From the NCBI GenBank assembly GCA_030620935.1, contig JAUXIP010000129.1, positions 1 through 6,325 on the forward strand: a DNA stretch of 6,325 nucleotides, in the 5' to 3' direction. Position numbers and translations under genes: made by a program. This document shows positions 1 through 6,317 of this stretch, one piece after another. Each line of letters starts with the position of its first letter. Positions within the stretch are counted from its first letter, which is position 1. The notes below the pieces were generated by a model. That model ran no database searches. It worked only from the letters and a program-made list of their open reading frames with translations, and was not told the origin of the DNA. This DNA is from Deltaproteobacteria bacterium. GTDB taxonomy: Bacteria; Desulfobacterota_B; Binatia; UBA9968.

Positions 1-200
1 ACAAGAACTACTATGCACGGTCTCCCGAGCGCAATCCGCAGGGGCCGGCCACCGGCGTGCGGCGCGCTTCCCGCGGCGGCTCCTGGCGCCACCACATCAA
101 ATTCAGCCGCTGCGCGGCACGTAGCTCGCTCCCGCCCGCGTCTCAATACGCAGACTATGGTTTTCGAGTGGCGATGAGCTTGAAAAAGGAGTTGAGTTGA
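1..200 (+). CDS. Formylglycine-generating-enzyme-like (SUMF1-fold) protein, C-terminal fragment
   Basis: This is the 3' end of a gene that begins outside the window. It is read from base 3 and leaves 65 residues before TGA at 198-200. The fragment shows the C-terminal signature of the FGE-sulfatase/SUMF1 fold: NPQGPATGVRRASRGGSW, then RCAARS, then YADYGFRVA. This matches the family pattern NPxGPxxG, RGGSW, RxAxR, GFRvA. True FGE oxidises a sulfatase Cys to formylglycine with a Cys pair lying between GGS and the CAAR motif. Here that stretch is RHHIKFSR with no Cys, and only the CAAR Cys remains. A canonical sulfatase-activating enzyme is therefore unlikely. Many bacterial members of this fold have other or unknown roles. 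The DNA is much more GC-rich than what follows after about base 280, so this gene may belong to a separate transcription unit or have a different history. Confidence 0.85.
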   Translation, partial: KNYYARSPERNPQGPATGVRRASRGGSWRHHIKFSRCAARSSLPPASQYADYGFRVAMSLKKELS

Positions 201-1391: not shown

Positions 1392-2004
1392 TCAGGTAGC
1401 TGAGGGTCTATAGGCAGCGCCTAAAACCACGCCAAAAAGCAAATGGACCATTAAGCTCATGGCTTGAGGCGAAGGCCCCTTAGAAGAAGGAGTACCGCTC
1501 CCACAAGGGTTCGCCACAGCACACGGATTGGCCTTCACTCCACATGGGTTGCTTGCTTTTGGAGCGCATGGATTGGAGTTGATTCACTGCACATGGATTT
1601 ACTGGCCGAACGGAACATGGGTTGGCTACAGCGCACGGGTTTGCCGCGACCGCTTCTTTCCCCTTTAAGAATTCACCAGCCATTTGAAGGCCTGGACCAA
1701 GAAGGGTTATGGCGAAAATCCAAGGGAGAAAGGAAAACAAGGCACCGCGTATCCACCCTGGGCCAGGTAGCCACGGATAAAAAAACAGGGCATAGATCAG
1801 TGCAAGTGAAATCCCTATCCCGAGGTGGATCACCGATCCCATGAAGTAGGGCGACATGTTAAAGGGGAACACCCCTCCTAATGCAGCCATGATATCCATA
1901 CTTGGTAAGCCGATGAGCGGCCAGCCGTACATTAAAATGGTCATAGCCGCCGTTCCTAGCAGACCGGCCAACAGAATCCTTCCAAACTTGAGTGATCTTA
2001 TCAT
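1392..2004 (-). CDS. Membrane protein with seven NPC repeats, frameshifted
   Basis: ATG at 2004 follows GAGGAGA. The uninterrupted frame stops at TAA 1480-1482 (174 aa), but its last 31 residues are off-frame. Skipping one base at about 1575-1578 (CTCCAAT read as CTCAAT) continues to TGA at 1392-1394 and gives 203 aa. The restored part adds four more NPC units and a hydrophobic C-terminal helix, SLMVHLLFGVVLGAAY. Helices fall at about residues 8-30, 52-78, 86-106 and 181-198, so it is a four-helix membrane protein. The NPC units (residues 122-168) fill the loop between helices 3 and 4. The helix pattern resembles small DUF6789-like membrane proteins, but I am unsure of the family. It lies 92 nt downstream of the exported protein gene at 2097-2402 and probably shares its ECF promoter. 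The frameshift may be a sequencing error, a real mutation or recoding. Confidence 0.75.
1500..1641 (-). repeat. Seven NPC peptide repeats in the membrane protein
   Basis: The units are NPCA, NPCS and NPCA in the first frame, then NPCA, NPCG, NPCA and NPCG in the shifted frame. They are spaced by 6 to 8 residues. The Pro and Cys codons differ between units, so the peptide rather than the DNA is what is conserved. The frameshift falls between units three and four. The other seven-unit NPC array in the window is at 5676-5801. Confidence 0.8.
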
Positions 2005-3027: not shown

Positions 3028-3108
3028 GGTCAACCTTGGGATAGAGTGTTGCAAAACACTGTTGCCAGCCTGGTCAAAAAGGTCCCAGATGCGAGGAAGC
3101 CCAAACGT

Positions 3109-3735
3109 ATGAATGGCACAACCGAAGCATTGTCTGGGGGGAGGCTATTGCCGTTTCCCCTGAGCAGGAAGAGGGCCTTGAAAGAGGAGTTTGAACGGCT
3201 GGCTCTTCCTCATCTTTCGGCTCTTTATACTGCCGGCTACTACCTTACAGGGAGCGAAGCAGAAGCTGAAGATCTGGTTCAGGAGACTTATCTGCGGGCC
3301 TTTCGCTTCTTTCATAAATTTCAGCCGGGGACAAACTGCAGGGCGTGGCTCCTCTCGATCCAGCGGAACCTTTTCTTCAATCTCTATAGGCAAAAGAGGC
3401 GTGAGCCGGAAATGGTGGATTGGGAAAAGATCGATCAGGCTTATGAAACCATTGTGGATCGACAGGAGAACGCACGAGCGGAGGAAGGTGACCCCGAAGA
3501 GCTTTTTTTCTCCCGGCTCATGGATGGCGAAGTGGAAAGCGCCCTCAAGGAACTCGCTGAAGAGTTTCGCACTGCCATTCTGCTTGTGGATATTGAGGAG
3601 CTGAGCTACCAAGAGGCGGCTAAGGTCATGGGGTGCCCGGTCGGCACGATCCGATCGAGGGTTTCTAGAGGGCGTCGCTTTTTACAGGTAACACTAAAGG
3701 AGTATGCCCTAATGAGAGGGGTGATAAAAGAATAG
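3109..3735 (+). CDS. ECF-family RNA polymerase sigma factor (sigma-70 regions 2 and 4)
   Basis: Region 2 is clear: YYLTGSEAEAEDLVQETYLR, then AFRFFHKFQPGTNCRAWLLS and IQRNLFFNLYRQKRR. This is the core-binding and -10-recognition part of RpoE-type ECF sigma factors. Region 4, near the C-terminus, has ELSYQEAAKVMGCPVGTIRS followed by RVSRGRRFL, the helix-turn-helix that reads the -35 box. There is no region 1 or 3, as in ECF factors. I chose ATG at 3109 (208 aa), with AGGA at a longish 11-nt spacing. An in-frame GTG at 3046 would add 21 basic residues and cannot be excluded. The anti-sigma gene follows at 3928, so the factor is probably held at the membrane until an envelope signal arrives. Four GGGAACT/TTGTTT promoters around it are its likely targets, including its own. 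Confidence 0.95.
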   Translation: MNGTTEALSGGRLLPFPLSRKRALKEEFERLALPHLSALYTAGYYLTGSEAEAEDLVQETYLRAFRFFHKFQPGTNCRAWLLSIQRNLFFNLYRQKRREPEMVDWEKIDQAYETIVDRQENARAEEGDPEELFFSRLMDGEVESALKELAEEFRTAILLVDIEELSYQEAAKVMGCPVGTIRSRVSRGRRFLQVTLKEYALMRGVIKE

Positions 3736-3779: not shown

Positions 3780-3786
3780 AAGGTAA

Positions 3787-3892
3787 ACCCCGAACCACGG
3801 ACTTACGTCCGTGGCTTTGGGGCGCTTCCCTTCGGGGAAGTTCGGAACATTCATCCCCGGACTCACGTCCGGGGCGTTCTGTGGTACGGGGT
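3787..3892. repeat. REP/MITE-like palindromic element between sigma and anti-sigma genes
   Basis: The element is about 106 bp and is bounded by ACCCCGAACCAC (3787-3798) and GTGGTACGGGGT (3881-3892), which match inversely at 11 of 12 positions. Inside are three perfect hairpins. The first is CCACGGAC/GTCCGTGG with a TTAC loop (3795-3814). The second is CTTCCC/GGGAAG with a TTCG loop (3825-3840). The third is CCCCGGAC/GTCCGGGG with a TCAC loop (3855-3874). The first and third share the core GGACTYACGTCC in direct orientation. Such arrays are typical of REP sequences mobilised by RAYT transposases, or of the subterminal hairpins of IS200/IS605 elements. No transposase is present. In RNA it would form a compact branched structure in the anti-sigma leader. 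Confidence 0.7.
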
Positions 3893-3927: not shown

Positions 3928-4674
3928 ATGATGGATTGCCAAGAATATAAAGAAATTATATCGGCTCACGTGGATGGAGCCCTTTCGTCAAGGGAGCGAC
4001 CTGTAGTCCAAGCTCACCTCAGCCAATGTCCCAAATGCACGCAAAAGTTTTTGTGGGAGACCGAGGTGAAGAAATCTCTTAAACGAAAGCTCTCTCCTAT
4101 TCCGCTGAGACCCGGTTTGAGAGAAAGACTCTTGGAACAATTAGGAGAGACTAATAAGGAAGGATTTTTTGGTTGGTCCTATATGACTCATGGGTTGGCG
4201 GCTGCCTTTGCCCTTCTGCTTATCGTAGCCGTGCCCTACCTCTTGCGGCAGGGTAAAGTCCAAGAGGAGATCTTTACCAACGCGATAGCCCAGTACCAAA
4301 TGGTAACTCAGGGGATCTCGGATACTCCACCAGCTTCAACGACCCCTGCTGCTCGGGTCCTAGATTTGAGTCCCTGGGGCTATCATATATTAGCAAGGCA
4401 AACCAAGCAGGTTAGAGGGCAAGAAGGGCGGGTTTTTGTCTATCAAGGGCAAGGGAAAGAGTATCTACTGGCTCAGGAATTTGAGGGGGCAAGTATTTTG
4501 CCTCATCGCCACGCCGAATCCATCCAGGTATCCAACCGTGATTTTGTAAGCTACAGCCAGGACGGCGTGAATCTAATCGCCTGGAAGGAGAAGGACCTCC
4601 TCTGTATCCTCACCTCCACCCTTCCCAAAAAGAAACTCCTCGGCCTTGCTCAAAAAATCGTCACGGTCAACTAG
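3928..4674 (+). CDS. Membrane anti-sigma factor with zinc-binding (zf-HC2/ZAS) domain
   Basis: The N-terminal cytoplasmic domain begins MMDCQEYKEIISAHVDGALS and carries the zinc-binding anti-sigma motif HxxxCxxC in AHLSQCPKC (H30, C34, C37), with a further Cys at position 4. One transmembrane helix follows at about residues 86-106 (YMTHGLAAAFALLLIVAVPY). The roughly 140-residue periplasmic domain includes a Pro/Thr/Ala linker and a mainly beta-like region with LPHRHAESIQVSN, whose function I do not recognise. Such proteins sequester their cognate ECF sigma factor and release it on an envelope or redox signal. ATG at 3928 (AAGG 7 nt upstream) is used; the second ATG at 3931 is equally possible. 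Its own ECF-type promoter and a REP-like element separate it from the sigma gene by 192 nt, an unusually loose arrangement for such a pair. Confidence 0.93.
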   Translation: MMDCQEYKEIISAHVDGALSSRERPVVQAHLSQCPKCTQKFLWETEVKKSLKRKLSPIPLRPGLRERLLEQLGETNKEGFFGWSYMTHGLAAAFALLLIVAVPYLLRQGKVQEEIFTNAIAQYQMVTQGISDTPPASTTPAARVLDLSPWGYHILARQTKQVRGQEGRVFVYQGQGKEYLLAQEFEGASILPHRHAESIQVSNRDFVSYSQDGVNLIAWKEKDLLCILTSTLPKKKLLGLAQKIVTVN

Positions 4675-4801: not shown

Positions 4802-5575
4802 TTAGTTCTTTTTCCTGCCTGCCTGGCCACTCTCCCGGTTGGGAATTATGAAGGTTTCACGAATGTAGCGAATTAGGCTCCAAATCTCTTGATCGCTTAG
4901 TACCTGACCAAAGGGTTGCATGGTGTCGAATTTTGCCTCCTCAACAGCACCAATTTTCCCTCTCTTTATGAGGGCAAAAATGAAATCGTCACTAAAGCGG
5001 GCCATCAGCTGGGGATCCGTTAGATTCATGGGAGAGGGTTGCGCATCTCTTACGAAATATTTCGGCGCAGGCTGAATAGAAGATGCCCTTTCACCGTCAC
5101 CTCGCCCGCCCTTTCCGTGACAGATCGCACATGCGGCATCGAAAATCTCTCTCATCTCGGCCGACTGGTTTCCTCCACGGCTGAAAGCCCTTTCGAATTC
5201 GATCAGTTCACGAATCTGATCGTCTTCAAGCACATCTCCGAAAGACGGCATGGCAAGGGACTCAAACGTTTCGTCAGGGATTTCTCTCTTCAGCACCGCG
5301 AGCTTCCCGTACTTAACGACGTTAAACATATATTCCTCAGTAAGCCGTGACATATAGACGGAGTTGATGAATACCTGCGGACTAGGTTTGGTATTACGCC
5401 AGCCTGGCCCTTTGCCATCCCCTTTCAGACCGTGGCAGGCAAAACAGATCTCTTTGTAAACCTGCTCTCCCAGCCGGAGATCCCCCTTTTTTATTGCCGT
5501 TTCGTCTCCTTGAGCTTTTACACTCCAGGAAAACAAGGCGAATGCGGTGATGAGAAACATTGCTGTGCTCTTCAC
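4802..5575 (-). CDS. Periplasmic diheme c-type cytochrome
   Basis: I place the start at GTG 5573-5575, which has GGAG 8 nt upstream and opens directly into a signal peptide (VKSTAMFLITAFALFSWSVK, cleavage near KA|Q). The open frame runs upstream to 5776, but only as antisense of the NPC repeats of the preceding gene. The 257-residue protein has two cytochrome c domains of about 100 residues. Heme motifs are CFACH (C44, C47, H48) and CAICH (C149, C152, H153). Matching axial-Met regions are AMPSFGDVLEDDQI (M109) and TMQPFGQVLSDQEI (M219). It is a soluble periplasmic electron carrier or a subunit of an electron-transfer complex; its partners are not shown. It lies 94 nt downstream of the monoheme cytochrome, separated by a strong hairpin, and is probably co-transcribed with it. 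Confidence 0.93.
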   Translation of the reverse strand: MKSTAMFLITAFALFSWSVKAQGDETAIKKGDLRLGEQVYKEICFACHGLKGDGKGPGWRNTKPSPQVFINSVYMSRLTEEYMFNVVKYGKLAVLKREIPDETFESLAMPSFGDVLEDDQIRELIEFERAFSRGGNQSAEMREIFDAACAICHGKGGRGDGERASSIQPAPKYFVRDAQPSPMNLTDPQLMARFSDDFIFALIKRGKIGAVEEAKFDTMQPFGQVLSDQEIWSLIRYIRETFIIPNRESGQAGRKKN

Positions 5576-5669: not shown

Positions 5670-6317
5670 TTACCTTCTAGGCGCACAGGGGTTTTTAGCC
5701 GCACATGGGTTCTTGGCTGCACACGGATTCTTAGGCGCGCAAGGATTTTTGGCGGCACATGGATTTTGTGCCGCACAGGGATTCTTCGCTGCGCACGGAT
5801 TTCCTGCGGCCATCTTCTTTTCCACCTGGAATCTCTTCGCCTCCCAAGTCTTCATGGCCTTATAGACCTGGGGGGTCAGAGAGGCTACGTAGGAGTAAAG
5901 ATCGATGTACTCTTGCGAGTTCGGGTCCATTGGCTCACGGCCAAGGAAAATAGTGTTTCAGAGGTCGTTCATAACGCCAATGGTGGCCATAAACCCAGAT
6001 GCCGCCCTGCGCGGATAATGGAGAGCCGAATTTTTGAGAGTTGGGATCTCGATGTTCATCCTAGTGCCAGTGGCATCTACCGCCGTGCCGCCGATAGTCC
6101 CTCCGCGAGGATGACATCCAGCGCAACCGAGTCCGTTAAAGAGCTTTCGGCCTCGCGCGATCGACGCGTCGATGCGGTCGTTCGACTTCAAGGTTTGAAA
6201 ATAGGGACCCATAACAATTTCTTTCTTTTGCTGAGCGTAAAGAAGACCAGGAAGGCTCAGGGCCAGAAAGATTGATACGGACGCCGCGATACTTGTCATT
6301 CTCAATTTTCCTTTCAT
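5670..6317 (-). CDS. Monoheme cytochrome c with in-frame TGA (possible selenoprotein) and NPC-repeat tail
   Basis: Read through one TGA, the gene encodes 215 residues. A signal peptide (MKGKLRMTSI, then a hydrophobic core, LYA|QQ) leads to GRKLFNGLGCAGCHPRGG, with heme at C65, C68 and H69. Codon 120 (5958-5960) is TGA. The same frame continues NTIFLGREP, MDPNSQEYIDLYSYVASL (the usual C-terminal helix of cytochrome c domains), a basic linker, and seven NPC hexapeptides ending in TAA. From memory of TsdA-type and related cytochromes, a Cys stands at this point (C, then L or M at +10, S at +14, E at +16), and the spacing fits exactly. A SECIS-like hairpin follows the TGA. ATG at 6317 gives a basic n-region; ATG at 6299 has a better AAAGGA site. 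ATG at 5930 has no ribosome-binding site. The alternative is a nonsense-mutated gene. Confidence 0.8.
5676..5801 (-). repeat. Seven 18-nt units encoding NPC hexapeptides
   Basis: The units are NPCAAK, NPCAAQ, NPCAAK, NPCAPK, NPCAAK, NPCAAK and NPCAPR, at residues 173-214. The DNA units differ at many third positions: the Pro codons run CCG, CCC, CCA, CCT, CCG, CCA, CCC, and the Asn and Cys codons also vary. This indicates an old repeat held by selection on the peptide, not fresh slippage. Seven Cys at a 6-residue spacing in the periplasm suggest metal binding, disulfide linkage or thiol scavenging. Confidence 0.9.
5926..5960 (-). promoter_or_regulatory. In-frame TGA with bacterial SECIS-like hairpin
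   Basis: On the minus strand TGA (5958-5960) is followed by a hairpin with UUGGC (5944-5940) paired to GCCAA (5934-5930) around the loop CGUGA. The stem is extended by UCC (5947-5945) paired to GGA (5928-5926), with one bulged U. The loop begins 18 nt after the TGA. Known bacterial SECIS rules, as I recall them, ask for an apical loop 16-37 nt from UGA with a G in its first two bases, and this hairpin meets both. A short GC-rich hairpin can also occur by chance. Confidence 0.45.

Follow-up and report, generated by a model that had tools for sequence, protein, structure and literature searches.

We analysed a window of 6,325 nucleotides, the whole stretch of DNA considered here, and found the candidate cytochrome gene on its minus strand, running from 6317 down to 5670; the original prediction had given no strand. 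The upstream part of the gene is an open reading frame of 119 amino acids (6317-5958, minus strand), and past the TGA that follows it the frame continues for 95 residues, open until a TAA at 5672-5670 (minus strand). The earlier claim that the frame is open on both sides of a single TGA is thus correct: the read-through frame comprises 215 residues, contains one TGA and ends with TAA. We assigned the following features to the locus.

5670..6317, minus strand: gene for a predicted selenocysteine (Sec)-containing monohaem cytochrome c of 215 residues, read via one TGA (translation, homologs and DNA loci)
6234..6317, minus strand: probable signal peptide, residues 1-28, ending LYA (assigned by eye)
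6111..6125, minus strand: haem c motif CAGCH, residues 65-69 (translation)
5958..5960, minus strand: TGA codon 120, probably read as selenocysteine (TGA in 11/11 loci of the clade, Cys codon in 12/12 sister loci)
5926..5947, minus strand: SECIS-like hairpin of 8 bp with one bulge, its loop CGUGA starting 18 nt after the TGA (folding)
5673..5801, minus strand: C-terminal NPC(A) repeat tail with seven Cys (translation)
4802..5575, minus strand: dihaem cytochrome c gene immediately downstream, with two Cytochrome_CBB3 stretches (start codon by inspection)

The two parts of the frame together make one complete cytochrome c, as originally proposed. The haem motif is encoded before the TGA, and the C-terminal helix that closes the cytochrome fold (residues 135-146 in our structural model) is encoded after it. 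CAGCH is the only CXXCH motif in the protein, and its Cys-65 and His-69 are invariant across 41 alignment rows. A 145-residue core of the protein scores 24.6 bits against Pfam Cytochrom_C (PF00034, cut-off 21.3), and the full 215-residue protein has no match to this model at E<=0.1. No NCBIfam model (June 2026) was matched above its cut-off by the window protein, and PADLOC found nothing. The tail carries seven NPC repeats whose synonymous codons differ from one repeat to the next, in agreement with the codon divergence noted earlier.

We compared the surroundings of the gene with those of related loci (L numbers). Homologs of the dihaem cytochrome, 50-79% identical, lie beside the cytochrome gene in L001-L004 and L137-L142. 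The dihaem gene follows the Sec cytochrome in at least L001-L004, L137 and L139-L142 and follows a Cys-containing cytochrome in L138; the L005 contig ends before the position of this gene. Upstream of the cytochrome, several relatives carry a gene for a BNR/sortilin-like propeller together with genes for NPC-repeat proteins. In L005 (6915-7958), L137 (1363-2346) and L142 (8896-9975), the beta-propeller gene immediately precedes the Sec cytochrome region. Separate small NPC(A)-repeat proteins, which possibly bind metal, are encoded near the cytochrome in the window (1480-2004, minus strand), in L003 (6348-6890) and in L137 (2372-2959), the one in the window being fused to a DUF6789-like part of sub-threshold score.

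Elsewhere in the window, an FGE-sulfatase-like protein (PF03781, E 1.8e-6) is cut by the window edge, its C-terminal end being encoded at positions 3-200 (plus strand), and a similar FGE-like gene is present in L137 (4710-5363). An ECF sigma factor and a zinc-finger anti-sigma factor form a pair at 3046-3735 and 3928-4674 (plus strand), on the strand opposite to the cytochrome genes, and similar pairs occur in L001, L005 and L142. Short palindromic repeats (CACGGACTTACGTCCGTG-like) occupy positions 3785-3880, over which an Rfam search of the window returned its only match, to Acido-Lenti-1, with an E value of 0.51 and below cut-off. Five-haem cytochromes are encoded near the locus in L005 (4878-6038, minus strand) and L003 (4895-6202, minus strand); the L005 protein scores 64.8 bits against the ExtKL (seleno)protein model, far below the cut-off of 250.

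We next asked which residue relatives have at the position of the TGA. A protein search returned 550 relatives, 120 of which were listed, and the counts that follow refer to those 120. Ninety of them stop exactly before the TGA position (118-147 amino acids, mostly 119), their stop codon being seen only where the same gene was also fetched as DNA. Another 28 have Cys at the site and continue beyond it; of the remaining two, P0114 aligns a Cys at the site and P0109 ends earlier. In alignment A3, Cys is found in 29/29 non-TGA rows that reach the Sec column, and 27 further rows stop just before the column. At the DNA level, codon 120 is TGA in 11/11 loci of the clade, the window included, and conserved protein sequence follows it (the L005 contig ends shortly after the TGA); the 12 sister loci have TGC in 11 cases and TGT in one. 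Both expectations of the original prediction, that homologs would have Cys at residue 120 and that relatives would share the TGA (10 further DNA loci), were borne out. The genome labels in the TGA clade include Deltaproteobacteria, Rokuibacteriota and Tectomicrobia. In a tree built from 32 rows, a branch with a support of 100/100 separates the 11 Sec rows from all others; several of the Cys rows represent identical or almost identical proteins and do not count as independent.

A scan of one genome per species across 84,980 species yielded 22 loci, among them 8 full family members with TGA in L001-L006 and TGC in L007 and L010; genome searches added the TGA loci L050, L051 and L052 (from the class of G006) and L097. 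The gene was present in 4/95 genomes from the class of G006 and in 4/25 genomes from the family of G001, with TGA in all 4 in either case, and in 14/18 genomes from the phylum that holds G004 and G007, where 2 have TGA and 12 have a Cys codon. Within a sample of 297 genomes from the phylum of G001, the full-length gene was found only in G001 and G003, all other matches being to NPC repeats.

The sequence after the TGA appears to evolve as coding sequence. Over the 48 codons that follow it, third codon positions hold at least half of the differences in 9/9 pairs of the window with a relative. Differences between the window and L002 number 4, 3 and 12 at the first, second and third codon position, respectively, and in the weakest pair, with L003, they number 5, 4 and 9 (third position 9/18). 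For the most distant relatives, synonymous and amino-acid-changing codons are about equal (16/16 for L051, 14/15 for L052).

The same stretch forms the SECIS-like hairpin. The bacterial SECIS model, as given in a 2026 review of prokaryotic selenoproteins (PMC13188914), has a loop of 3-9 nt with a G in the first two loop positions, located 16-37 nt from the UGA, and an MFE of -7.5 or below. All 11 of the 11 TGA loci conform to this model, with the loop at 18 nt and energies of -8.5 to -14.6 kcal/mol, and 0/12 Cys loci conform to it in full; in the Cys locus L093 the loop rule is satisfied and an energy of -7.1 kcal/mol misses the limit. The window hairpin alone is no proof of a SECIS element, because the model is also satisfied by 438 out of 2000 versions of the window with uniformly randomised synonymous codons, 196 of these reaching the energy of the window as well. 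Conservation across loci is stronger evidence for a SECIS element than the fold of a single sequence. Codon usage was compared in 10 rows, L005 being left out as it is cut by the contig end. Phe+4, Gly+6 and Glu+8 each use a single codon in 10/10 rows and Arg+7 uses CGT in 9/10; in the 10 remaining invariant Gly columns, 3-4 codons occur per column. Within the hairpin, 3/7 invariant columns are single-codon (mean 1.57 codons); outside it, this is true for 4/47 (mean 2.60 codons). Pair 18:30 is T-A in 6 loci and C-G in 5, with both sides synonymous. It is the only covarying stem pair, and 11 of 500 shuffles reach its covariation score; G+C bias could contribute to this signal, since C and G occupy these positions in the Cys loci L084-L089 as well. 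The hairpin nucleotides U17, G23 and U24 presumably match the numbering of E. coli fdhF.

The search for sel genes suggested with the original prediction was run on the genomes of relatives, and Sec genes were present in most of those searched. Among genomes with the TGA gene, tRNA-Sec scores above cut-off in 8/10, selA in 7/10 and selB in 4/6 searched. Two TGA-bearing MAGs whose completeness is not stated, G003 and G004, have no selA, selB or tRNA-Sec above cut-off, their best tRNA-Sec scores being 45.8 and 40.7 (cut-off 47), and G322, with the TGA gene, has no selA above cut-off. In genomes with the Cys form, selA is above cut-off in 11/12 (G007, G008 and 9/10 others). L002 is a single 6.4-kb contig on which the Sec cytochrome, the dihaem cytochrome, tRNA-Sec, selD and selB lie in succession.

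L002, 3349-6345: tRNA-Sec, selD and selB in tandem, adjoining the Sec and dihaem cytochromes

The SelD of this contig itself has an in-frame TGA where the UxxK motif fits (motif as in PMC13188914). tRNA-Sec is located less than 2 kb from the cytochrome gene in G420 (TGA) and in G419 (Cys), and none was found within the window.

The candidate Sec-containing cytochrome c is supported by the Cys of its homologs, by the shared TGA and by the Sec genes of its relatives. Judging from these sequence comparisons, we consider it very probable (roughly 0.93-0.95) that the product of the locus is a secreted monohaem cytochrome c with selenocysteine at residue 120. SelB and tRNA-Sec would decode the TGA, aided by the hairpin directly 3' of it, and decoding would yield the 215-residue protein rather than the 119-residue stub found in the databases.

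Other accounts of the codon have to be weighed against this. A broken gene or a sequencing error, in which a Cys codon has turned into TGA and no selenium is involved, had been raised with the original prediction as a one-base change from TGC or TGT. One base change is indeed enough, and the window is a single record without reads. Yet 10 further loci share the TGA at this codon and encode conserved protein beyond it, and 90 among the 120 listed proteins end at this position; because of the 10 further loci, mutation or read error is very unlikely, to a degree that makes it almost negligible. The cytochrome could also end after 119 residues and a second product, a downstream peptide, could start from the ATG at codon 130, located 27 nt after the TGA; a 119-residue product does exist in the databases. 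However, the same sequence is one protein in 12/12 Cys loci, and the first half would be without the C-terminal helix at residues 135-146 of the model. In addition, positions +1, +2, +4, +6 and +9, which precede the ATG, are identical in 11/11 Sec rows, and a plain stop need not be TGA in 11/11 loci, so that we give this arrangement very little credence. We hold it for just as improbable that a changed code or leaky readthrough places another amino acid, such as Trp, at the TGA. The open frame would be expected in this case as well, but the aligned residue is Cys in 29/29 readable non-TGA rows, and Sec genes and a SECIS-like hairpin accompany the gene in most relatives tested. In L004, L051, L097 and the Cys locus L088, the frame terminates with TGA; since TGA also ends the frame in the first three of these, it is not globally reassigned.

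We compared our model of the protein with known haem proteins. SoxA (1h31) and TsdA rank first in VIA-align, with peroxidases not far behind (Z up to 8.9), and a Foldseek search with the model found nothing at E<=0.001. When profiles were aligned, SoxA domain 1 reached a probability of 88.7 and an E value of 2.6e-6 (one comparison); Sec120 is placed on the Cys of this domain, and the distances from there to a Pro, to a Ser and to the C-terminal helix are the same in both. The Cys of SoxA domain 1 ligates its haem. Alignment to the catalytic SoxA domain 2 is poor (probability 5.5); a three-haem family, which has no Cys at the Sec position, is on a par with SoxA domain 1 (probability 89.9). A sequence search of the PDB gave mostly matches at the level of the haem motif, with SoxA 1h31 as a weak one (E 0.055). 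The SoxA model TIGR04484 weakly matches 24/62 family rows (best 1.6e-4), and PF21342 matches 25/62 alignment members at E<=10 (best 5.8e-6); for the window protein, PF21342 gives no match at E<=0.1 or at E<=10. The domain resembles SoxA domain 1 and the N-terminal domain of TsdA, with Sec120 located where these have a Cys near the haem iron. We lean towards a fold of the SoxA type in which Sec faces the haem.

Selenocysteine may, on the other hand, be inserted into a protein that has a plain class I haem ligated by His-69 and Met-130, with Sec120 as a nearby or surface redox residue that perhaps pairs with the NPC cysteines. Met-130 is nearly as conserved as Cys/Sec, being present in 10/11 Sec rows and 40/40 Cys rows, and the trimmed protein passes Pfam Cytochrom_C, which both argue for such a haem. 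It is at odds with the Leu found at residue 130 in L052 and with the first rank of SoxA and TsdA in the VIA alignment. SoxA domain 1, P0114 and the distant L013 and L015 (weak matches) also have Leu at the 130 position and have Cys at the Sec position; because these Leu-bearing proteins keep their Cys, Cys/Sec is favoured as the ligand, without this settling the question. We regard the His/Met haem as a serious alternative of somewhat less than even probability. A natural selenolate-ligated c-type haem, with Sec120 bound to its iron as the distal axial ligand, is a tentative assignment, which in our estimate falls just short of an even chance. Such a haem might, with the same reserve, represent the selenium counterpart of the Cys-ligated haems of SoxA and TsdA. 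In its most probable role, the Sec120 selenolate would ligate or closely face the haem and carry the chemistry, for example by transiently binding a sulfur or selenium compound as an adduct, and electrons may be exchanged with the dihaem cytochrome encoded next door.

With SoxA and TsdA, which head the VIA alignment, the protein shares a single haem c domain, and it differs from them in having one haem, Sec in place of Cys and an NPC tail. With regard to SoxX or a second haem domain as electron acceptor, what the window shows is one haem motif in the chain and an adjoining, separate dihaem gene. In TsdA, Cys123 ligates the haem and the active-site Arg119 sits four residues before it (PMC4423706); by residue offset, the Arg119 position is Met or Leu in the 11 Sec rows and Phe or Met in the 40 Cys rows. 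The Cys form (Nitrospinota and relatives, L084-L095) is the same kind of gene, with 44-55% identity and an NPC tail, and in the Cys locus L138 its neighbours include the dihaem cytochrome and an NPC protein. The forms L084-L095 differ in their TGC or TGT at the site and in the SECIS features, complete in none of the 12.

ExtKL (NF040886), which we take to be the Geobacter candidate of Fujita et al. 2007, is likewise a c-type cytochrome with an in-frame TGA. The Geobacter selenocytochrome candidate has five CXXCH motifs and no non-Sec homologs, and its authors found no SECIS (PMC1914089); the window protein, in contrast, has one CXXCH and no NF040886 match. An octahaem tetrathionate reductase family cytochrome (TIGR04315, GenBank-annotated) is a further c-type cytochrome listed with Sec in the 2026 review, but it has eight haems, whereas the window protein has one and does not match the model. 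That review counts 119 families, and its table names two c-type cytochromes, one multihaem (ExtKL) and one octahaem; a family of Sec monohaem cytochromes c is absent from the table as available (PMC13188914). Titles and the beginnings of abstracts among the literature matches listed do not describe the family either, and Haft and Tolstoy 2025 or Deng et al. 2026 may mention it. The original statement that no Sec cytochrome c is known at this site therefore stands for the family and the site; it does not extend to Sec cytochromes in general. Because Sec multihaem cytochromes c are already on record, the novelty lies in the family and the site.

If our reading is correct, a monohaem cytochrome c joins the selenoproteins, a class absent from the available 119-family table. 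The 119-residue database entries, represented by the 90 among 120 listed relatives, would then be stubs cut at the Sec codon. The family would offer a natural protein in which to test the effect of selenium beside a haem, with the Cys sister family as a control. In the accessible part of PMC11273360, Sec-ligated haems appear only as engineered P450s, and should Sec120 turn out to be an iron ligand, the cytochrome would be a natural counterpart of these seleno-P450s. It is conceivable, though we would not quite bet on it, that uncultured bacteria use a Sec120-ligated haem, together with its dihaem partner, in the redox chemistry of sulfur, selenium or metals.
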